From the NCBI GenBank assembly GCA_023717565.1, contig JAMQPI010000248.1, forward strand, positions 1 through 33,878: a DNA stretch of 33,878 nucleotides. The letters run 5' to 3'. The position numbers and the translations under genes were made by a program. The notes below the pieces were generated by a model. The model saw nothing but the letters and a program-made list of their open reading frames with translations. It was not told where the DNA came from and made no database searches. Shown here piece by piece: positions 4,613 through 32,629 of the stretch (within the stretch, counting starts at the first letter, position 1; every line of letters starts with the position of its first letter). The stretch comes from Pyrinomonadaceae bacterium. Lineage in GTDB: Bacteria; Acidobacteriota; Blastocatellia; Pyrinomonadales; Pyrinomonadaceae.

Positions 4613-4735
4613 CCGTCAGTCCGTCTTCAGTTGTAGACGAACACACACTCGGCTATGGTTTCTCTTCGATGTGGGGCTCAAACATCAAAATCAGCTGCTG
4701 GCTACTAACCACTGACCACGGACTACAAACTTTTA

Positions 4736-7729: not shown

Positions 7730-8476
7730 ATGAGTGATCCCCAGATTGAACTAGACGCTCTCGCCATCTTTTCCCACCCGGATGATGCTGAGTTGTCGGT
7801 GGCGGGCACCTTGCTTAAGCTGAAATCGCTTGGTTATCGCACCGGCGTTGCTGATATGACACGCGGTGAAATGGGTACCCGGGGCACGCCTGAGGTGCGA
7901 GCCATGGAGGCCCTGGAAGCAGCGCGCGTGATGAATCTGGACGTGCGCATAAATCTTGAACGCCCAGATGGTCACGTCTGGCCCAATGAAGAGGCCCGCA
8001 CAGCAGTCGTCCGAATTATCCGCAGCTATCGCCCGCAAGTATTGATGACCACTCACTGGGACGATCCTCATCCCGACCACGCGAATACCTGCCGTATCGT
8101 GCGCGAAGCGGCGCGACTTGCGACCATGGCCCGCTATGATGCCGAAGCAGGACAGCAACCTGCCCCAATGCCGGCGTTGATGCACTCCCTTTATTCCCGG
8201 TTGGTGATTCCATCATTCATTGTTGACGTTTCTGATTTCGTAGATGAGAAGATGAAAGCCATCCGGGCGCACGCGTCACAATTCTACCGCGCGGAGTCAA
8301 AAGAGCCAGCCACGCGTATCAGCGACGTTGGGTTTTTGGAGGAGATTGAGCTTCGGATGAGGTACTACGGATCGATGATTGGGGTTAGTGCAGGCGAAGC
8401 ATTCTACGTACGCGAAGCGCTTAACATTGAGGATCCGGTGGCACTATTGACGAGACCGATGAATATTTACTCTTAG
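7730..8476 (+). CDS. bshB1: Bacillithiol biosynthesis deacetylase BshB1-like (PIG-L/LmbE family)
   Basis: LDALAIFSHPDDAELSVAGTL (HPDDAE motif), MTRGEMGTRGTPEVRAMEALEAARVM, THWDDPHPDHANTCRIVREA. Confidence 0.88.
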   Translation: MSDPQIELDALAIFSHPDDAELSVAGTLLKLKSLGYRTGVADMTRGEMGTRGTPEVRAMEALEAARVMNLDVRINLERPDGHVWPNEEARTAVVRIIRSYRPQVLMTTHWDDPHPDHANTCRIVREAARLATMARYDAEAGQQPAPMPALMHSLYSRLVIPSFIVDVSDFVDEKMKAIRAHASQFYRAESKEPATRISDVGFLEEIELRMRYYGSMIGVSAGEAFYVREALNIEDPVALLTRPMNIYS

Positions 8477-8626
8477 TCAGTGGTCAGTAGTCAGTGGTCA
8501 GTGGTCAGTGGTCCGTGGTCCGTTGTCAGGCGCTAGGAGTCGCGAGTAGTCAGTTGATGAAGGCGCTTTTAGAGCAGCAGAGATTTTGTTATCGGACAAC
8601 TGACCACTGACCACTGACCACTGACT
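8474..8626. repeat. Inverted array of GTCAGTGG units (convergent intergenic)
   Basis: Left TAGTCAGTGGTCAGTAGTCAGTGGTCAGTGGTCAGTGG; right CAACTGACCACTGACCACTGACCACTGACTA; near-complementary arms flanking about 90 bp. Confidence 0.9.
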
Positions 8627-10616
8627 AGTTCTTAATCTCCAATAGCTCGCTCGTCGTCCCCCCTTTTTTTGTTTCCAACACCGAGCGTGCAACTGCCAAC
8701 GTGGCGATTGCCCGAGGAGTATCCGCCGTGAACCCGCGGGCTAGTTCCACTGCACGATAAATATCTTCCTTCGCGAGCAAACTGAAGATCCCGACGAGAT
8801 CGAAGTTGTCCACAGTCATATTAGTAGTTGACGCCCCGCGTCCCATGGCGAAACGAGCACTGACTTGGGCATCCTCGCCGCTGAATTCAGAGGTTGAGTT
8901 CGCGGCTTTAACCGCCTCACCCAGCGCTTCCCAAACCCGACCTCGGTCGATGTCATACATCTGACTCGCGACGCCTACGAGTGCGCGAGCGTGATCACCG
9001 TCGCCGCCTCCAATGCGGCGGGCGACAGTGGCCGCTTCGTTCAGCACCTCCACAGCGCGATTGGCGTCGGTCTTCTTGAGAAATTGGGCAACCTGCAACA
9101 GCGCCCAGGTCCGCTGAATGTGCGTTAGTTCTGCGGTCGGCAGCAAACGCAGCACTTCCTGCACGTCTTTCTTATCGATCGCGCGACTGACCAGCGTGAA
9201 GTCTACATGGGCGCGCGCCCGCTTGCGAAGATCGCTGTCCGCGATCTTGTCAACCAGATCGCGGGCAGTTATTTCGCCTTTACGAGCAGCCACCAGCGCC
9301 GCCCGGGCGTAGAGTTGATCGCGCTCGGCGGCATTGGCTACACGCTCAGCGAGATCGAGCGATTCGCGCCCCTCATCACGCGATTGATCCTCGGGAACCA
9401 GACCCCGGGTGAGTAGCCGATTCTGCCCGGTGCGCAAATCTTCAGTGGCGTCGGGAGCAATTGAAGAGAGTTGCACTCGCAGCTCAGGAGCGAGCTCAGG
9501 GGCATATTGGTCCAGCAGCGGGAGGATGCGTGCAATCATGAAATACAAACCGCGCCGTCCGGCTATCGTGCGATCCTGGTCGGGCGGTTGCGGCGGTCGC
9601 AAAAGGATCTGGCTTGCCCCGCGTAGAAATGCGAGACGAAGGTCGGGTGCGATGTTCGGCGCCACTATTAGCTCGCGTTGCTGGCTGGAATGATTTTGTC
9701 CGTTGCCTCTGACGATAATGTAGAGGAAAGGCGTAAACACATAGGAAGACAAGACTGACACACCGACCGCGTCAGAGGTAGGATCGGCAACGGTGCGGGC
9801 CAGCATGGTAGCAAATCGTTGATCCGCGGCCAGCTGGTCCTTCTCCCTCAGCGTCGAGAGAAAGAAGATGCCCCGGGTGGTAACGCGATCCAGGACTGGA
9901 TCTGCAAACTGTAATGCGCGGGCAATGTCTCCCTCTTCCAGCAAGCGGCTGGCGAGTTGGAGTCGTTGCGACAACGCGAAAGGCGGGTCTTCCGGATCGG
10001 CGGTCTTGAGCGTGGCCGCATTGGCGTTGCCAGAACCCGCACCGCTGGTCTCTCGATTGGTATCGTCAGTTAGCTGGGCCAGGAACTCTTCTGATAGCGC
10101 TCGGTCACGTTTGGCCGAGAGTCGCAACACTTCACTGCGCAACTCGGGCGGCGACTGAATGTACTCGTTCGCACCGCGAGATGCAGATCGACTCTTTTCT
10201 TCATAACGTTGCCAAGCTTCCTTGTCGGCCGTGCCAGCCGCATCCCAGGCGCGGCGGAACAGCGTGCGCGCTTTCTCAACATCGGATTCCCAAAGCGCGT
10301 CGGCCGCCCGGGCCTGCACCCGAGCACGCAAGGTTTGGTCTTGATAACTGCGGGCCTCGTCCGCCAGCGAAGTCAAGAGAGAGATCGCAATTGTACGGCG
10401 TTGGAGAGCGAGTGGATTGGGTTCTTCGCCTTTTGTTTTCCTTTTCTCTTTGAGCGACGCTGGTGGCGCTTTGCTTTCCGGCGTCTGGGCTCGAACTATG
10501 AGAGTTGGCACCAGAGATCCAATTATCAGTGCGACCATCAGAACGATGGGAAACGGGTAAGTGCTACCAATCATCGGATTTCCTCTCTTTGAGACTGCGG
10601 GGCGGGTGGCCCGCAC
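8625..10616 (-). CDS. Secreted protein of unknown function (paralog of 10872..12785)
   Basis: Long ORF with N-terminal hydrophobic signal-like segment (TYPFPIVLMVALIIGSLVPTLIVRAQT), alpha-helical repeat-like sequence; clear similarity to the next gene (LRARVQARAADALWESDVEKARTLFRRAWDAA). Confidence 0.85.
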   Translation of the reverse strand: MRATRPAVSKRGNPMIGSTYPFPIVLMVALIIGSLVPTLIVRAQTPESKAPPASLKEKRKTKGEEPNPLALQRRTIAISLLTSLADEARSYQDQTLRARVQARAADALWESDVEKARTLFRRAWDAAGTADKEAWQRYEEKSRSASRGANEYIQSPPELRSEVLRLSAKRDRALSEEFLAQLTDDTNRETSGAGSGNANAATLKTADPEDPPFALSQRLQLASRLLEEGDIARALQFADPVLDRVTTRGIFFLSTLREKDQLAADQRFATMLARTVADPTSDAVGVSVLSSYVFTPFLYIIVRGNGQNHSSQQRELIVAPNIAPDLRLAFLRGASQILLRPPQPPDQDRTIAGRRGLYFMIARILPLLDQYAPELAPELRVQLSSIAPDATEDLRTGQNRLLTRGLVPEDQSRDEGRESLDLAERVANAAERDQLYARAALVAARKGEITARDLVDKIADSDLRKRARAHVDFTLVSRAIDKKDVQEVLRLLPTAELTHIQRTWALLQVAQFLKKTDANRAVEVLNEAATVARRIGGGDGDHARALVGVASQMYDIDRGRVWEALGEAVKAANSTSEFSGEDAQVSARFAMGRGASTTNMTVDNFDLVGIFSLLAKEDIYRAVELARGFTADTPRAIATLAVARSVLETKKGGTTSELLEIKN

Positions 10617-10758
10617 ACGTTGCTCATACGAGGGTTGATTCTTCCGGTTCAGTCAAATTCAGGGCGGGCTAGCTAACTCTACTCGTTGAGGCTGGCGAAA
10701 GTCGAGTGGTGGATAAACAGTACTTACCGATCTTTGAGCTTTCGGGCTGGTGAAAAAC

Positions 10759-10816
10759 ACGATCCACGAAACCCCATGAAACGGGTTGTCTTGTTTCGTG
10801 CTATTTCGTGGATCGT
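10759..10816. repeat. Inverted repeat ACGATCCACGAAA...TTTCGTGGATCGT
   Basis: 13-nt perfect arms (10759-10771 / 10804-10816) with an inner CATGAAAC/GTTTCGTG near-palindrome; intergenic. Confidence 0.85.
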
Positions 10817-10871
10817 CTTGACCGTTTGTTACATCAACCTTGAATCTTCACGATTGCTCTTCTGGGCGGAG

Positions 10872-12908: not shown

Positions 12909-13006
12909 CACGCAAAGACGCAAAGGGAGCAAAGACGCAAAGAAGAACCAGGCACCTTTCATGTAATCTCTTCTTTGCGTCTTTGCTCCCTTTGCGTCTT
13001 TGCGTG
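12909..13006. repeat. Perfect 36-bp inverted repeat of GCAAAGACGCAAAG units
   Basis: CACGCAAAGACGCAAAGGGAGCAAAGACGCAAAGAA (12909-12944) is the exact reverse complement of 12971-13006; 26-nt loop; intergenic. Confidence 0.95.
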
Positions 13007-19141: not shown

Positions 19142-19200
19142 CAACTGACAACGGACTACTGACGACGGACTACTGACAACGAACCACTGACAACTGACTA
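19142..19200 (+). repeat. Tandem degenerate ACTGACAAC/GGACTACTGAC units directly upstream of bshA
   Basis: CAACTGACAACGGACTACTGACGACGGACTACTGACAACGAACCACTGACAACTGACTA; ends 2 nt before the bshA ATG. Confidence 0.85.
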
Positions 19201-23255: not shown

Positions 23256-25055
23256 ATGACCAAGAGACTCTCGTTAATAGCCGCGCTCGCAGTTTTTGTG
23301 AGCGCGGCTTTTCTGTTTTCCTGCGATCCATCTCAGCGCGAGGAATCAGCAGCGATCAAAGGGTTCGTGCAGACTCGAGGCAGCCGTTTCGTCGTTGACG
23401 GAAAACCGTTTCGCTTCGTGGGTGCTAACGTCGCGATTATGCATCGCGATGAAGATCGACAACGGATGCCAGAAACGCTGCGCCAGGCTGCGCAAGCCGG
23501 TATGCGCGTCGTGCGGGTCTGGGCTTTTGGCGAGGGCGGCCCCGGGGACGTGGGCCCGCTCGCGGACTTTGCTGATTGGCCACGGACTCACCCGTTTCGA
23601 TTTCGACCCGGTGAGTGGAACGAAGAAGCGTTTGTGCACCTCGACAACGTCATTGTTGAAGCTCAACGCAACAACATCCGCGTGCAACTCTGTCTGACTA
23701 ACTGGTGGCGCGATACCGGCGGTGTTGCTCAGTATTTGCGCTGGGCCGGAATCAATGACGCCGACGATGATCGCCTTCCTTTTGGCATCAACCCTGAGCG
23801 CGCGATGCTATTTTATACCAACGAAACCACCCGCCGGCTCTATCGCGAGCATCTGGAAAAGGTGGCCACGCGCCGCAACACGGTAACCGGAGTCTTCTAC
23901 CGGGACGACCCGACAATTTTTGGTTGGGAGCTGATGAATGAAGCACAGGCTATGACAGGCCGCTGGGGAGAGCGTCGAGCATGGATCGCCGAGATGAGTG
24001 CTTATCTGAAGGCGCTCGATCCCAAGCACATCATCGCTCCTGGTACCTGGGGATATCGCACCGCCGCTGAGAGAAGGGAATGGCTGGCAGATCACCGCTT
24101 ACCTAACGTTGACTACTGCGACGTGCACAACTACCCGCGGCCTGATGAAGACAGCTTTGTAGATTCGCCGGCTGCGATGCGTCAGTTCATAGACAATCGG
24201 GCAGCGGCGGCGTTCTCAATCAACAAGCCGCTGGTATTTGGCGAGTTTGGCATGGGTCAGGAAGGCTACAAGGGATTTACCCAGGTTGAGTGGTTTCGAG
24301 CTTTCCTGGAAGGCAACCTTCGCGCGGGGGCCGGTGGAGCGATGTTCTGGATTTTGACACCGGATCCCAACCGTGGTTACGGAGTGGTGTATACGACACC
24401 GCGCGACCAGGCAGTGATCGCGGAGGTCAGTCGCGCAGCCAGGGCGTTTGAGTCGTTGAAGTCCGCCGATCTGCCGGAACGACTAACTGATCCCGGGCGC
24501 CACCTGGTGCCCCGGCAGTTTGTGTGGGCCAGAGCTGTTGGGGATCCGGCGACAGTGCCCCTGATGATAGTCAAAGAAGACAAGTCGGTTCTCTATCGTT
24601 TCAAGCCGAACATGACTGTTAGCGCGCGCTTCGAAAAACTGGGCGGCGGGCCAGGATATCTCTGGGGCGGAGGAGCAGGGTTCTTTGAGTATCTCGTACC
24701 TGCTCGTGAGGACTGGCGGCGGGTCAGTGAGATTGTTGTGAAGGCGCACTTGCAACCAGTCTTGCCGACAGATGCCAAGCCCAAAGACATTAAGACCAGC
24801 GTCACTCTATTCGTAAATGGTTCTGAGTGCGGCGCGCGACTGATTCCTGTGCGGCAATCAAGCACGCCTCTTATTCAGGAATGGCGTGTGGAGGGATTTC
24901 TGGCTCGGCTGCACGCCATGCGAGGGTTGCCCATAAGAATCCGCTTTGCCGTCACGCCGGACACCGATTGGATTTATGGGATCAACATTTCGAACTGGCC
25001 GGAAGGGTACGAATCAAACGACGCGAAACCAGTAGAGGTTGAACTGCGGCACTGA
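23256..25055 (+). CDS. Glycoside hydrolase GH5-like (cellulase/mannanase family) lipoprotein
   Basis: Lipoprotein signal VFVSAAFLFSCDPS; FVVDGKPFRFVGANV...; candidate catalytic Glu in FGWELMNEAQ and LVFGEFGMGQEG. Confidence 0.85.
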   Translation: MTKRLSLIAALAVFVSAAFLFSCDPSQREESAAIKGFVQTRGSRFVVDGKPFRFVGANVAIMHRDEDRQRMPETLRQAAQAGMRVVRVWAFGEGGPGDVGPLADFADWPRTHPFRFRPGEWNEEAFVHLDNVIVEAQRNNIRVQLCLTNWWRDTGGVAQYLRWAGINDADDDRLPFGINPERAMLFYTNETTRRLYREHLEKVATRRNTVTGVFYRDDPTIFGWELMNEAQAMTGRWGERRAWIAEMSAYLKALDPKHIIAPGTWGYRTAAERREWLADHRLPNVDYCDVHNYPRPDEDSFVDSPAAMRQFIDNRAAAAFSINKPLVFGEFGMGQEGYKGFTQVEWFRAFLEGNLRAGAGGAMFWILTPDPNRGYGVVYTTPRDQAVIAEVSRAARAFESLKSADLPERLTDPGRHLVPRQFVWARAVGDPATVPLMIVKEDKSVLYRFKPNMTVSARFEKLGGGPGYLWGGGAGFFEYLVPAREDWRRVSEIVVKAHLQPVLPTDAKPKDIKTSVTLFVNGSECGARLIPVRQSSTPLIQEWRVEGFLARLHAMRGLPIRIRFAVTPDTDWIYGINISNWPEGYESNDAKPVEVELRH

Positions 25056-25060
25056 GAAGA

Positions 25061-25198
25061 ATGTCCGATATGCTTCAGCTTGTCGTCGAGATTGCCAACC
25101 CTCAAGCAGGTATTACTCGTGACGTCGCAAGGTATTACTCGCAACGTCGCACATTGAGCTTTTCGAATCTCGACGACAAGCTGAAGCATGTCGGACAT
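25061..25198. repeat. Palindromic dispersed element, copy 1 (33-bp arms)
   Basis: ATGTCCGATATGCTTCAGCTTGTCGTCGAGATT (25061-25093) vs reverse complement of 25166-25198, one difference (G-U pairable in RNA). Interior has a 22-bp tandem duplication AGGTATTACTCG(TG/CA)ACGTCGCA. Confidence 0.97.
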
Positions 25199-25215: not shown

Positions 25216-26976
25216 CTATCTGTTGATCGTTTCGGCAACAACCGCGAGTGAGGCAGGATCCATTACGTAAACATCCGCTGCCGGGACGCCTCCCAGCGCA
25301 GTCTGGAATGCGGGAGCAGTTGTTTGTTTGAGGGCCGAGATGACGGCGTCATTACTGAAGTAGCGTCGCCCGCGCGCATCGACCAGGAAGTCGCCATCGC
25401 TTAATTGTCTCAGAGCCTCGGGATCTGAAAGCGAAATGAAAACCAAGTCAGGACGACCTGCGCGCTCAGCGTAGTGAGACGCCAGACCCGGTGTTTCGGT
25501 TGCGACTCTCGCTCCGGGTTTGGCACGCCTGGCAATCTCCGCCATCACGTCCCGCGTACTCGCGTCATAGAACTCATCGTGGGGAAAGAAAGAACCGGCC
25601 TTGGCCATGCCGCCGCCGAGGACGTTCGTGTAGAGCCGAAAGTACGGTCCCGCACTCGCGGAGGTAGCGATTGACCCGAGCACGAGTGACAGTACCAATC
25701 CTGCCTTAACATAGACCCCAGCCCGTTCACTTGAAAGCAGCACTGTGAGTTGTTGGGATACCCAACGACCTACAAACTGCGCGCCTACCGCAGCGGTGAT
25801 AAGCACAGCCGGCAGCACGAGCGTGAAGTAGCGTGTGAATTTCCCACCGACAAAGACGAAGGTCATGATCCAGACAAACAGCCAAAAGAGAATGAAGTAG
25901 CGCCCATCCCCGAGCTTACGACGGAAAAGTAAGGGCAAGCCGGCTACAAATGCCACGATCGTTAGAACAGGTAGTTTCACGGCAAGGAAGACGGCATAGA
26001 GGTACCAAGGGGTACCAGCCAACCAGTCAGTCATGCGATGGCTATAAAGCGAACCCATGAATTCGTAGCCGTCGTGGCCAATACGTTTCTGCCCGGCGAA
26101 GATTCCCATCTCACGCCAGGTGGCGGGCAGCAGCGCAGTCGGGCTGAGCAGCAGAAACACTCCACCCATGATCAGAGTGACGATCAGAAACTTCTTCTTG
26201 CCGAGCCGCCAGCGGGTTTCCGGAATGGCTTGAAACATCCAGTAGTAACAAATACTGACACCGATAAGTTGGGGAAGATATTTGGACGCCATCATCGCGC
26301 CGAAGCAGGCGGCAGTGGCCCAGTAATAGCGCTCCGGTCGGACGACGGTTCCGTTGCGGCTGCCGTTCTGTAGATCGCGACCGCTGGATCCACTCTCCGC
26401 CACACGTTGTCCGCGCAACCAGAAGATGTTCGCCAGGAGGAAAAAGAAGATCAGGAAGGAGTCCTCTTTGGCGATGCGGTTGAACCCAATCGCCTGCGGG
26501 TCAAATGCCCAGAGCGCCGCAGCCAGCAACGCTACTTCTGCACCGAACAGCTCCGCTGCGAGGAGGTAAATAAGGATTACAGTGAGCGCGCCAAACACAG
26601 TCCCGGGCAAGCGCAGGGCCGTTTCCGTAGGAATATGTAAGGAGGAGTTTTGATTGGCGAGCGAGCTATTGTTCCACTTCTCGGCGACGAAGATGCTGGC
26701 GGTCTGCAGTGCTTTCATCAGCATCGGGTGCTCGCCATTAGCAGCGGTCAATCCGTTCTGACGGTAATCGGCGACCGCGAGGAGTTTGTTTAGCTCATCT
26801 TCGCTGAGTCCTTCCGCGCTCAGACCGGTAACGCGAAAACCAAAACCTGCCAGCACCAGCAAGGCGAGAGTTGCAATCACCAGAGTTCGGCTGGCCAAAA
26901 GCACCCCTCGTTCGGCAAACAAATCGGGTCTCAAGCCCGCGGTTACTATTGCTTCTGCTTCCGCCGCCAAATCCAA
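25216..26976 (-). CDS. GT39/ArnT-like dolichyl-phosphate-mannose-type glycosyltransferase, multi-TM
   Basis: LSEDELNKLLAVADYRQNG...GEHPMLMKAL, LRLPGTVFGALTVILIYLLAAELFG, WAFDPQAIGFNRIAKEDSFLIFFFLLANIFW; many TM segments. Confidence 0.85.
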   Translation of the reverse strand: MDLAAEAEAIVTAGLRPDLFAERGVLLASRTLVIATLALLVLAGFGFRVTGLSAEGLSEDELNKLLAVADYRQNGLTAANGEHPMLMKALQTASIFVAEKWNNSSLANQNSSLHIPTETALRLPGTVFGALTVILIYLLAAELFGAEVALLAAALWAFDPQAIGFNRIAKEDSFLIFFFLLANIFWLRGQRVAESGSSGRDLQNGSRNGTVVRPERYYWATAACFGAMMASKYLPQLIGVSICYYWMFQAIPETRWRLGKKKFLIVTLIMGGVFLLLSPTALLPATWREMGIFAGQKRIGHDGYEFMGSLYSHRMTDWLAGTPWYLYAVFLAVKLPVLTIVAFVAGLPLLFRRKLGDGRYFILFWLFVWIMTFVFVGGKFTRYFTLVLPAVLITAAVGAQFVGRWVSQQLTVLLSSERAGVYVKAGLVLSLVLGSIATSASAGPYFRLYTNVLGGGMAKAGSFFPHDEFYDASTRDVMAEIARRAKPGARVATETPGLASHYAERAGRPDLVFISLSDPEALRQLSDGDFLVDARGRRYFSNDAVISALKQTTAPAFQTALGGVPAADVYVMDPASLAVVAETINR

Positions 26977-27609: not shown

Positions 27610-28974
27610 ATGAAAAATTCTCCTTCTCCGCCACAGACCGAGCCGCGACTGGTCCGCCGTCTGGGGTTGTTTGACGCCACGATGATAGTTATGGGCGGAA
27701 TCATCGGCTCGGGCATTTTCATTAATCCTTACGTGGTGGCCCGGCAGGTCAACACGCCATTCCTGATTCTAGGTGTTTGGGCGTTGGGCGGATTGATCGC
27801 CTTGACCGCAGCTTTTATCTGGGCGGAGTTGGCCGCGTTGAGGCCGGAGGTCGGCGGCCAGTACGCATATCTCCGCGAGGCTTTTCATCCATCAGTTGCG
27901 TTTCTCTACGGCTGGGCCCTGTTGCTGGTTATTCAAACCGGCGGCATGGCCGCCGTCGCGGTTACCTTTGCGCGCTACTTCGTTGAGCTAACACACGCGC
28001 CCGTTGCTGACTGGTCGGTAGCCGTCCTCGCGCTCGGCAGTCTAACTGTCATTAACTGTCTGGGAGTTCGCTCCGGCAGCACCGTGCAAAGCGTGTTGAT
28101 GGTCCTCAAGATCGTTGCGATCATTGCGCTCATCGTATGTGGTCTGCTGCTCGCTGGGGCCGTGCCCGCGACGGTTACTCAAAGCTCGGACGTGTTGGCC
28201 CAACCAATCTCATTTGATTTACTAACTGCGGTGGGAGCTGCCATGGTGCCGGTGCTGTTCGCCTACGGTGGTTGGCAGACCGCCAGCTTTGTCGCGGGCG
28301 AGATGCGCGAGCCAAAAAAGAATCTTCCTCGAGGATTGCTAATCGGGGTCACCGGCGTAGTGATTCTGTATCTCGCGGTGAACTTCGTTTGTCTGCGCGT
28401 ATTGGGCACTTCGGGGTTGGCAGCGACTACAACACCGGCCTCCGATGTAATGCGACTCGCCTTGGGCGAGAAAGGCGCGCGGGCGATTGCCGCCGGAATC
28501 GCGATCTCAACACTCGGCTTTCTTAGTCAGGGGATGCTAACAGCGCCCCGCGTTTATTTTGCGATGGCCGAGGACGGGTTGTTCTTCAAGGTGGTGGGGC
28601 GGCTCCATCCAAAGACCCACGTTCCGATTGTGGCAATCGCCCTTCAGGGTCTGTTGGCCGTAGTCATCGCGCTTTCGGGGCGGTACGAGCAGATTTTGAA
28701 TTATGTAGTTTCGGTAGACTTCATTTTCTTCGGATTAACCGCGACTTGCATCTTCGTGTTTCGCGGGCGAAAGCAGAATCACGATGGTCATGAGGCGAAC
28801 GCGATAACCCGTGTGCCTGGGCATCCGCTGACTACCGGCGTGTTTGTGGTGGTCTGTTGGGTGGTAGTGATCAATACGGTCTACAAGTATCCGGAGAATA
28901 CGCTAATCGGCCTGGGAATTCTTATCGCCGGAATACCGGCGTACTTCTTCTGGCGAAGGAGAAAGATCGCATGA
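27610..28974 (+). CDS. Amino acid permease (APC superfamily)
   Basis: LGLFDATMIVMGGIIGSGIFINPYVVARQV...; about 12 TM segments; VLFAYGGWQTASFVAGEMREPKKNLPRGLLIG. Confidence 0.93.
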   Translation: MKNSPSPPQTEPRLVRRLGLFDATMIVMGGIIGSGIFINPYVVARQVNTPFLILGVWALGGLIALTAAFIWAELAALRPEVGGQYAYLREAFHPSVAFLYGWALLLVIQTGGMAAVAVTFARYFVELTHAPVADWSVAVLALGSLTVINCLGVRSGSTVQSVLMVLKIVAIIALIVCGLLLAGAVPATVTQSSDVLAQPISFDLLTAVGAAMVPVLFAYGGWQTASFVAGEMREPKKNLPRGLLIGVTGVVILYLAVNFVCLRVLGTSGLAATTTPASDVMRLALGEKGARAIAAGIAISTLGFLSQGMLTAPRVYFAMAEDGLFFKVVGRLHPKTHVPIVAIALQGLLAVVIALSGRYEQILNYVVSVDFIFFGLTATCIFVFRGRKQNHDGHEANAITRVPGHPLTTGVFVVVCWVVVINTVYKYPENTLIGLGILIAGIPAYFFWRRRKIA

Positions 28975-30083
28975 GCGGAACGCGGCCAGGAATGAGTTCC
29001 GAGTATATGCACTGGGCCAAGACGAGTTCGGCTGCCCGCTTTAATCTTGCCACCAGCGGACTGGAGAACTTGCCTCTGAGCGGTCTGAATTTCGGCCTCG
29101 CGGATCTGCAGCTTACACGCGGCGGTGGCTATGGTTACGAACCGCTGCAGCAGGCCTTAGCTCAGAGATTGAATGTTCGTGTTGAGTCGATCGTTGCGGC
29201 CATCGGTACGTCGCTGGCTAATCATCTAGCCATGGCGTACCTGGTCAAGCCCGGCGACGAGGTGCTGATCGAGCGTCCTACGTACGAGCCATTGCTGGCT
29301 TTGGCAAGATACCTCGGCGCGGACGTCAGGCGATTCGACCGGCGTTTCGAGGAGAGTTTCAGAATTGTCCCGGATGAGATCGAACGGCAGATCAGCCCTC
29401 GCACTCGTCTGATCGTGATAACAAACCTTCACAATCCTTCTGGTGTGCTTACTGACGATGAAACCCTTCGCCGAATCGGGGCGATTGCCCGAAACGCAAA
29501 CGCGCGGGTGCTGGTTGATGAGGTTTACCTCGAAACGCTGTTTGAAAAACCCGTTCGCACCTCCTTCCACCTGGGAGAGGAGTTCGTGGTTACCAGCAGT
29601 CTGACAAAGGCGTTCGGGCTTAGCGGACTTCGCTGCGGCTGGATCGTCGCCGAGCCGGAGGTGGCCCAGGGGATATGGCGACTAAACGATCTTTTTGGCG
29701 TGATGGCGGCGCATTCGGCGGAACGGTTAAGTGTTCTTGCCCTGAGTCAGCTCGATCAAATTTCGGCGCGGGTGCAGGCGCTGCTGCATACCAATCGTGG
29801 GCTGGTGAATCAATTCCTGGATTCGCGAGACGATATTGAAGCCGTGAGACCTGAATTTGGTACGATAGTTTTCCCGCGAGTGAAGCACGGGCCAACAGAG
29901 CATCTGATAGCTCTGCTGAGAACCAAATACGAAACATCGGTGGTGCCGGGAAGTTTCTTTGAGATGCCCGCGCATTTTCGCCTGGGGTTTGCCGGCGACT
30001 CGGAAACGCTGACTGAGGGGTTGCGAAGATTGGGTGCGGCGCTGGATGAGTTCATAGGCCGAGTGAGTGCCGGGTCGTCATGA
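28971..30083 (+). CDS. PLP-dependent aminotransferase class I/II
   Basis: NLHNPSGVLTDDETLRRIGAIARNANARVLVDEVYLE and SSLTKAFGLSGLRCGW (PLP Lys). ATGA overlap with the permease stop. Confidence 0.92.
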   Translation: MSGTRPGMSSEYMHWAKTSSAARFNLATSGLENLPLSGLNFGLADLQLTRGGGYGYEPLQQALAQRLNVRVESIVAAIGTSLANHLAMAYLVKPGDEVLIERPTYEPLLALARYLGADVRRFDRRFEESFRIVPDEIERQISPRTRLIVITNLHNPSGVLTDDETLRRIGAIARNANARVLVDEVYLETLFEKPVRTSFHLGEEFVVTSSLTKAFGLSGLRCGWIVAEPEVAQGIWRLNDLFGVMAAHSAERLSVLALSQLDQISARVQALLHTNRGLVNQFLDSRDDIEAVRPEFGTIVFPRVKHGPTEHLIALLRTKYETSVVPGSFFEMPAHFRLGFAGDSETLTEGLRRLGAALDEFIGRVSAGSS

Positions 30084-30106
30084 GCAACGGTCCACGAAAT
30101 GTCAAT

Positions 30107-30229
30107 CCCATGTCCGATATGCTTCAGCTTGTCGTCGAGATTGGCAACCCTAAAGCAATGATGTTACCAGTAACTCGAACATTGAGCCTTTCCAATCTCG
30201 ACGACAAGCTGAAGCATATCGGACATGGG
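30107..30229. repeat. Palindromic dispersed element, copy 2 (38-bp arms including 3 bp of flank)
   Basis: ATGTCCGATATGCTTCAGCTTGTCGTCGAGATTGG (30110-30144) is the exact reverse complement of 30192-30226; CCC/GGG flanks extend the stem. Confidence 0.97.
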
Positions 30230-30241
30230 GAGATGCGAGGC

Positions 30242-30913
30242 TTACTTTTGTGGCGGGTGCAGTGATACTGCCAGCAGCCAATCGTGAACGCGTTCGGCGG
30301 CTTCTATACCTGCGGCCTCGACAGTGATTTTGATGGGAGGGCCCTTGGGCCAATTGTCCTTCCGCATTCCCGCGCCGCCGATAGCCTGGTAGTAAACTTT
30401 GCCCTTGGCTTTTTCCTGACCGGTGCCTGGCGCAAATATGAAGTACTTGACTTCCAGATCCGGGGAATTGAGGATTATCCTGCCTTCCTGAAAATTATCA
30501 ATTTCGAACTGCAACAAGACCACCACTGACTCAGTCTCTTCCCGGGCTCGCAGTATTGCCTGCTGACGTTTGATATCGCCGATCGAAGTTCCGCTGACAT
30601 TTGTGAATTCATTCAGGCGCTTGATAAAACTTGCGTAGATGGTGGCTTCGCTCGGCAGTTGTTTCGAAGTCAACTGTCGCGCGACCAGCAGTATCACTTT
30701 GTGTTCGAGTTTGTGATTGCCTTGTTCGTTTCGGACGCTCGATCCACTCGCGTTTGCGTCCGTCGTGGGCGTGATCTCGGTCGCCGTTTGGGGCTCCGGC
30801 CGGGGCGCTCGCCTTCCCGACTGTCCCTTACAGGGGTTATCCAAAAACAATAACAATGGAACCAGAATGAGACCTCTGATTCGAGGCGCTGACGTTGTTC
30901 TCTGTCGGGTCAT
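30242..30913 (-). CDS. Hypothetical secreted protein
   Basis: ORF with N-terminal hydrophobic segment (GLILVPLLLFLDNPCKGQS) and a globular C-terminus; internal ATG at 30913 preferred to the TTG at 31015. Confidence 0.6.
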   Translation of the reverse strand: MTRQRTTSAPRIRGLILVPLLLFLDNPCKGQSGRRAPRPEPQTATEITPTTDANASGSSVRNEQGNHKLEHKVILLVARQLTSKQLPSEATIYASFIKRLNEFTNVSGTSIGDIKRQQAILRAREETESVVVLLQFEIDNFQEGRIILNSPDLEVKYFIFAPGTGQEKAKGKVYYQAIGGAGMRKDNWPKGPPIKITVEAAGIEAAERVHDWLLAVSLHPPQK

Positions 30914-31084
30914 TCGGGGAAACTCTCCGAGAACATCCTCACTTTTAGGCTTCAACTGGAGCGTCCACTTTTTACTGGATAAATTCGCGAATGTCGTCGC
31001 CTCCTGTGATGACAATTGCGTCCACGCTGTTGCAAGGATCGGAGTCTATTTGAAGTACATTTTCCATTCACTCTATCAACGGGT

Positions 31085-32281: not shown

Positions 32282-32629
32282 ACAGAACCATTTGCCGTAG
32301 AGACTGTGTCAAAACTCAGATGAGAAGCCTGACGTGTGTCGTGCTAGCGTAGACTTGGGCTTCACCCCGCGAGGGGTGCGATGTTTATAGCAACACGGGA
32401 CGCCACAACCCCTGCGCTGTTCGGAGTGGCGGAATGATCCTGGGATGATACCTTTCACATTGAGTTCCGCCCCTCCGAACAGCGCTGGAAGGGATAGCGG
32501 TCTGAAGCTATAAACATCGCACCCCTCGCGGGGTGAAGCCAAAGCTTGCTCCTAACCATGACACTCGTCGGGCAACGTCGGGCTTCTCATCTGAGCATTG
32601 ACACGGTCTCTTACCGCAAATGGTTCTGT
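32282..32629. repeat. 348-bp nested inverted-repeat element
   Basis: Outer arms ACAGAACCATTTGC..GTGTCAA..CTCAGATGAGAAGCC; middle arms GGCTTCACCCCGCGAGGGGTGCGATGTTTATAGC (32358-32391) exactly complementary to 32507-32540; inner arms 32414-32434 / 32465-32485 with one mismatch. Confidence 0.95.

Follow-up and report, generated by a model that had tools for sequence, protein, structure and literature searches.

A dispersed REPIN-like repeat in a Pyrinomonadaceae genome, with ends shared by RAYT transposase genes of related species

The inverted repeat at positions 30107–30229 of the window, the stretch of 33,878 nucleotides that was analysed (positions 1 to 33,878 of contig JAMQPI010000248.1 of a Pyrinomonadaceae bacterium, assembly GCA_023717565.1), belongs to a dispersed family of repeats. 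The element is very probably a non-autonomous, REPIN-like mobile repeat that is spread in trans by a RAYT, inserts between genes without duplicating its target, and prefers the tips of palindromes; effects on transcription or mRNA decay would be secondary. According to this model, the element has two palindromic ends recognized by the transposase, each composed of ATGTCC and a mini-hairpin, which are inverted around a spacer of about 60 nt, and in single-stranded DNA the whole element would fold as one long hairpin. The RAYT, a REP-associated tyrosine transposase of the HUH/Y1 type whose gene has the same ends in sister species, would insert the element into intergenic DNA, preferentially at the centers of other palindromes, which would give rise to composites of a hairpin within a hairpin.

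Anatomy of the element in the window

The copy at 30107–30229, referred to as copy 2, has 38-nt arms that are exact reverse complements of each other. The left arm (30107–30144) consists of CCC followed by 35 nt, and the right arm spans positions 30192–30229, in agreement with the first-pass annotation, which had described exact 35-bp arms extended by CCC/GGG. The inverted repeat is real and cannot be a product of chance: a perfect pair of 35-nt arms has a rough chance expectation of about 6e-15 in a window of this size, and the single-stranded DNA fold of copy 2 has a z-score of -14.7 relative to shuffles. The 47-nt interior (30145–30191, forward strand) is diverged and, as had been noted, shorter than that of copy 1. 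The other copy of the same element, copy 1, is located at 25061–25198 on the forward strand, and its interior is partly duplicated internally, so that GGTATTACTCG..ACGTCGCA occurs twice. The arms of the two copies had been described as matching; they are near-identical, with one difference in 35 positions in the left arm and two in 35 in the right arm, but the arms of copy 1 mismatch each other at 3 of 35 positions.

The strands of the flanking genes place both copies between converging genes, as previously proposed. Copy 2 is preceded by an aminotransferase class I/II gene (28857–30083, forward strand; PF00155, E = 1.6e-43) and faced by an uncharacterized gene without a Pfam match (30242–31015, reverse strand). 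Copy 1 is preceded by a GH5 cellulase-like gene (23256–25055, forward strand; PF00150) and faced by a gene for a PMT-family glycosyltransferase (25216–26976, reverse strand; PF13231 and PF02366). The warning that spurious reading frames may be called at the palindrome was justified, because frames of 61 (30080–30265, forward strand) and 67 amino acids (30150–30353, reverse strand) cross copy 2.

Each end of the element, about 27 nt long, combines an unpaired tag with a small and imperfect palindrome that follows it. In the local DNA fold, the left REP-like end of copy 2 (30110–30136, forward strand) begins with the unpaired tag ATGTC, which is followed by the imperfect mini-palindrome CGATATGCTTCAGCTTGTCG; the right end (30200–30226, reverse strand) has the inverted orientation. 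A single end folded as DNA likewise forms an unpaired ATGTC and then a mini-hairpin. The stem of this mini-hairpin contains one mismatch in the GATATGC variant of the window's own genome, and the GATAAGC variant folds well (z = -3.8). With ends of this kind, the element constitutes an inverted doublet made up of two REP-like palindromes, which together fold into one hairpin. The unpaired 5' part is ATGTC(C) rather than a GTAG-type or CGTC-type tag, and the element is therefore classified as REPIN-like and not as a GTAG or CGTC REP. Membership of the CGTC REPs was considered and rejected: CGTC is present in the arm, yet it is internal and paired.

Several other hairpin families are present in the window. 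An inverted doublet of CTTGGGCTTCACCCCGCGAGGGGTGCGATGTTTATAGC and its complement at 32354–32544 resembles repeats that flank a RAYT gene in the genome G007 (L122, C327), and probably represents a further family of REPIN-like elements, served by a RAYT of its own. A perfect 38-nt inverted repeat, CACGCAAAGACGCAAAGGGAGCAAAGACGCAAAGAAGA, at 12909–13006 belongs to the CGCAAAG-type hairpin family, which is common in the genome and is host to some copies of the element. Arrays and hairpins of inverted CTGACCACTGACCACTGACTA-like units occur in several spacers (8474–8627, 19145–19200, and 4698–4725). A hairpin with arms AACACGATCCACGAAAC and GTTTCGTGGATCGT at 10756–10819 is a member of the GATCCACGAA family, whose hairpin fills the spacer orthologous to that of copy 2 in three relatives (G001, G008, and G012). 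The segment GGTCCACGAA (30089–30098, forward strand), located next to copy 2, may be a remnant of the GATCCACGAA..TTCGTGGATC hairpin that is intact in these relatives. The spacer orthologous to that of copy 1 carries another hairpin in G012.

Distribution of the family and its link to RAYT genes

The genome searched was the window's own assembly (G000), a Pyrinomonadaceae-like Acidobacteriota MAG of 6.9 Mb in 735 contigs that is 89% complete. It contains about 36–40 dispersed copies of the element in all, a count based on 37 places in the loci taken, some of which are fragments of one element, together with two divergent copies, C129 and C497. The elements are 117–138 bp long, with spacers of about 60 nt, and 29 of the 30 placed copies are extragenic. 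Exact matches to 25 nt of the arm among 85,462 genomes, a collection that may omit the window's own genome, are limited to two Acidobacteriota MAGs labelled Pyrinomonadaceae and gp4. Viral contigs contain no exact 25-mer match, plasmids contain no match, and Rfam covariance models do not match the element at E ≤ 1. Relatives from the same genus have the same ends, with GATAAGC in place of GATATGC, around unrelated interiors. A weak match to the end motif in one genome from another family of the same class (L048) also reads as a palindrome and is likely to be a relative of the motif.

The interiors and flanks of the copies cannot alone prove that the element is transposed by a RAYT. In G006, a RAYT-like reading frame lies between two ends of the motif (L047); when 16 genomes from the genus were searched with its protein, G004:C41 and G012:C812 emerged as its closest relatives. 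The RAYT genes of G004, G006, and G012 are flanked by the same REPs, and the motif of the left end of copy 2 is found at these loci (L050/L135, L134, and L047/L133). In a tree of 25 RAYT or Y1 proteins, with the motif sought within each locus, the three motif-flanked RAYTs make up one clade (support 0.99), whereas none of the 22 other RAYTs examined is flanked by it. Judged from these sequences, the link between the end motif and one RAYT clade is specific. Because RAYT genes of three relatives have this end motif on their flanks, the element is interpreted as a non-autonomous repeat mobilized by RAYT and not primarily as a terminator. Mobilization by a motif-flanked RAYT would presumably proceed through a single-stranded intermediate.

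The RAYT of G006:C103 is a fragment and that of G004:C41 has one in-frame stop; in both genomes the REP overlaps the stop codon of the RAYT gene, which follows KELSDKL. The G012:C812 RAYT is an open frame of about 247 codons enclosed by two complete elements, one on each side, although it has no clear normal N-terminus. Its protein carries the HUH motif SNHVHTVF and matches NCBIfam NF047646 REP_Tyr_transpos with E = 1.2e-12 and 47.9 bits, which is under the cut-off of 80; a PDB sequence search gave no match. Present-day activity is doubtful, since the N-terminus of the G012 protein is unclear and the two other RAYTs of the clade are broken. A cognate RAYT of the motif-flanked clade was sought twice in the 89% complete genome of the window and was not found; it could have been lost or could be encoded in the missing 11% or so of the assembly. 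The RAYTs C61, C536, and C365 and five weaker candidates from the same genome were rejected as cognate, as none of them is flanked by the motif of the element.

Two RAYTs of the window's own genome adjoin other inverted repeats. The RAYT gene at L115 (G000:C365) is flanked by another REP family, CCCCAACCTAAAGGTTGGGG, and that at L121 (G007:C46) by yet another, an array with GGCATTTCAATGCC, which indicates that several RAYT–REP pairs coexist in the genus. A degraded RAYT-like gene in G007 (C165, L126) shares its locus with one end of the element motif and many copies of a CCACCAACTGCCGTTGGTGG-like repeat.

The nearest known kinds of element are REPINs and TIRtrons. REPINs are REP doublets that form hairpins (Bertels & Rainey 2011, PMC3116915). 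The element resembles them in being an inverted pair of REPs whose ends are conserved and whose spacer has diverged, in its extragenic position, in its long hairpin in single-stranded DNA, and in its link to a RAYT clade. It differs from them in the tag, which is ATGTCC and not of the GTAG type, in its longer spacer and arms (117–138 bp overall), in its acidobacterial host, in the absence of the cognate RAYT from the MAG, and in the nesting of many copies in palindromes. In TIRtrons, or TIRYTs, the inverted repeats on either side of a RAYT-like gene bear no relation to GTAG REPs; some of these repeats are self-complementary and dispersed as dimers, and they have been reported in Acidobacteria, including Koribacter (Di Nocera et al. 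2013, PMC3733652). The present RAYT-like genes are similarly flanked by non-GTAG inverted repeats, but the motif GGGGWSAS, common in TIRtrons, is missing from the ends of the element in a comparison based on the published description. With the ends of IS608-type elements of the IS200/IS605 family, the element shares the link to an HUH/Y1 transposase and subterminal hairpins with a guide-like 5' tag. By contrast, no tnpA/tnpB element has the ends of this repeat, which is a palindromic doublet without strand-specific left and right ends. The earlier suggestion of a REP/BIME-like site is thus supported by the inverted doublet of small palindromes, its dispersed extragenic copies, and the link to one RAYT clade. 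RAYT-linked doublets with a non-GTAG tag now extend to a lineage of soil Acidobacteriota.

Gene context and the RNA stem

Nine of the 29 placed copies are located between convergent genes, 17 between tandem genes, and three between divergent ones. The corresponding numbers for element-free spacers, which were drawn from the loci taken for analysis only, are 15, 81, and 18. The contexts were assigned by a simple gene caller; it overlooked the aminotransferase gene next to copy 2, but the class of that copy is unaffected. The enrichment at convergent sites that had been anticipated is present yet modest (9/29 versus 15/114, Fisher p = 0.03), and tandem-gene spacers hold most of the copies.

This enrichment, together with the extragenic position of the copies and the high stability of the hairpin, is what would be expected if the element were a bidirectional transcription terminator or protected the 3' ends of mRNAs, with its RNA stem under selection. 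Such a primary role is nevertheless improbable. The right end of copy 2, CATGGGGAGATG, and its left end on the other strand, CATGGGATTGAC, are not accompanied by a T-run; the GC-rich stem followed by a U-run that characterizes an intrinsic terminator is absent from copy 2, where a terminator scan finds none. At G000:C497, a separate terminator-like hairpin adjoins the element. These two loci speak against the proposal of a bidirectional terminator. Furthermore, orthologous spacers in relatives hold unrelated hairpins or none.

The first-pass annotation had also suggested selection on the stem, which is supported only in part. The arms are indeed conserved, and six of 40 arm pairs have changes on both sides, which is above shuffles and includes compensatory pairs. 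However, given the close relationship among the copies and the second role of the arms as transposase ends, double-changed pairs are not proof of RNA selection. The oriented strand has 32 cells with A.C mismatches and 18 with G.T pairs, which differs from the prediction of selection on the RNA hairpin of that strand, and strand-specific RNA selection is not supported by these counts. It is possible that some copies were co-opted for termination or 3'-end protection after their insertion. It is also possible that the host derives a generic benefit from some hairpin at gene ends, without specificity for this element. In the orthologous spacers of G002, G003, and G012 (L204, L210, and L198), the hairpin family that occupies the same slot differs from species to species, which suggests that hairpins at gene ends turn over fast.

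Insertion sites and nesting in other hairpins

None of 34 copies of the element is flanked by a target-site duplication of 4–11 nt. A classical MITE derived from an insertion sequence with a DDE transposase would also be short, bounded by terminal inverted repeats, and devoid of coding capacity; such an origin is highly unlikely given the lack of duplications, the RAYT genes flanked by the same ends, and a spacer that, as far as seen, contains no remnant of a DDE transposase.

The flanks of the copies are complementary to each other. The complementarity, scored by anchored alignment of the left flank against the right, is at least 10 in 44% of copies and at least 20 in 32%, versus 3.7% and 1% of mismatched controls, in which flanks of different copies were paired. 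Among the 25 copies with intact ends, the bases at ±1 are complementary in 88% (control 56%) and those at ±3 in 68% (control 23%). Many copies are positioned exactly in the center of hairpins to which they are unrelated, a hint as to how repeats of this type select their landing sites. The outer stems are up to about 40 bp long and originate from several unrelated palindrome families, and element-free copies of host palindromes from the CGCAAAG, GGTTGGGAAGG, and GATCCACGAA families exist in the same genome. The loci C428 and C234 have in common a 107-nt repeat that ends in the palindrome half CATGAA. The tip of the split palindrome CATGAA/TCATGACAC is filled by the element at C428, which has no ortholog, and by an unrelated hairpin at C234, its informative paralog. 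In the latter locus (L280, G000:C234:4600–5300), GTCAGTACCGTAGCGCGGTAGCGTCGGGTCA, which represents a hairpin family of its own, is repeated in tandem. At C595, the nested hairpin of the window's own genome takes up 182 bp where species G002 has 9 bp, which constitutes an insertion polymorphism between species. The orthologs of the C417 spacer contain other hairpins or lack one altogether and thus provide no clean empty site. Nesting is rarer in relatives (three of 20 copies).

The complementarity of the flanks could alternatively have arisen after insertion, if template switching of replication at the hairpin copied one flank in inverted form to the other side, so that palindromes grew outward without any target preference. 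The nested copies pair flush with the element, as this would predict. The left flank of C348, CCGTTGCTCAA, looks ancestral (CCGTGGCTTCA in G012), and the right flank, TTGAGCAACGG, repeats it exactly in inverted form and is missing from G012 and G011, although G012 has another large hairpin that blurs this comparison. The right flank of C543 has an extra GATTC relative to the paralogous palindrome C566, and in copy 2 the GGG looks ancestral and the CCC does not. Template switching as the source of the complementarity is possible but rather unlikely, because many outer stems are independent palindrome families that are found elsewhere without the element, and because the single split palindrome at C428 and C234 holds two different elements. 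These two loci and the known outer families favor landing at tips, whereas the CCC/GGG next to copy 2 and the loci C348 and C543 favor some flank copying across the hairpin during replication; both processes may be at work.

Insertion of REPs and REP dimers inside longer palindromes has been described for GTAG-15 of A. variabilis, GTAG-23 of T. roseum, and CGTC-1 of H. neapolitanus (PMC3733652), and nesting as such is therefore not new. In each of those families the target palindromes are essentially of a single kind, and two of the three genomes yielded no empty targets. By contrast, the present element occupies several unrelated families of host palindromes that have element-free copies in the same genome. 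What the present case adds is the diversity of the host palindromes, the existence of versions without the element, and a tip that is used twice.

A preference for tips may be the cause of the nesting. We tentatively propose, with somewhat less than even confidence, that RAYT-type elements land at the tips of hairpins, where the centers of palindromes are exposed as single strands, regardless of sequence. Intergenic hairpins would then seed further insertions, and unrelated families would use the same tips and give rise to nested hairpins. For the question of how REP and REPIN elements choose their targets, about 36–40 copies without target duplication, about 40% of them flush inside other palindromes, form a natural set. 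The element-free palindromes and the doubly occupied tip make the hairpin-tip model directly testable against growth by template switching.
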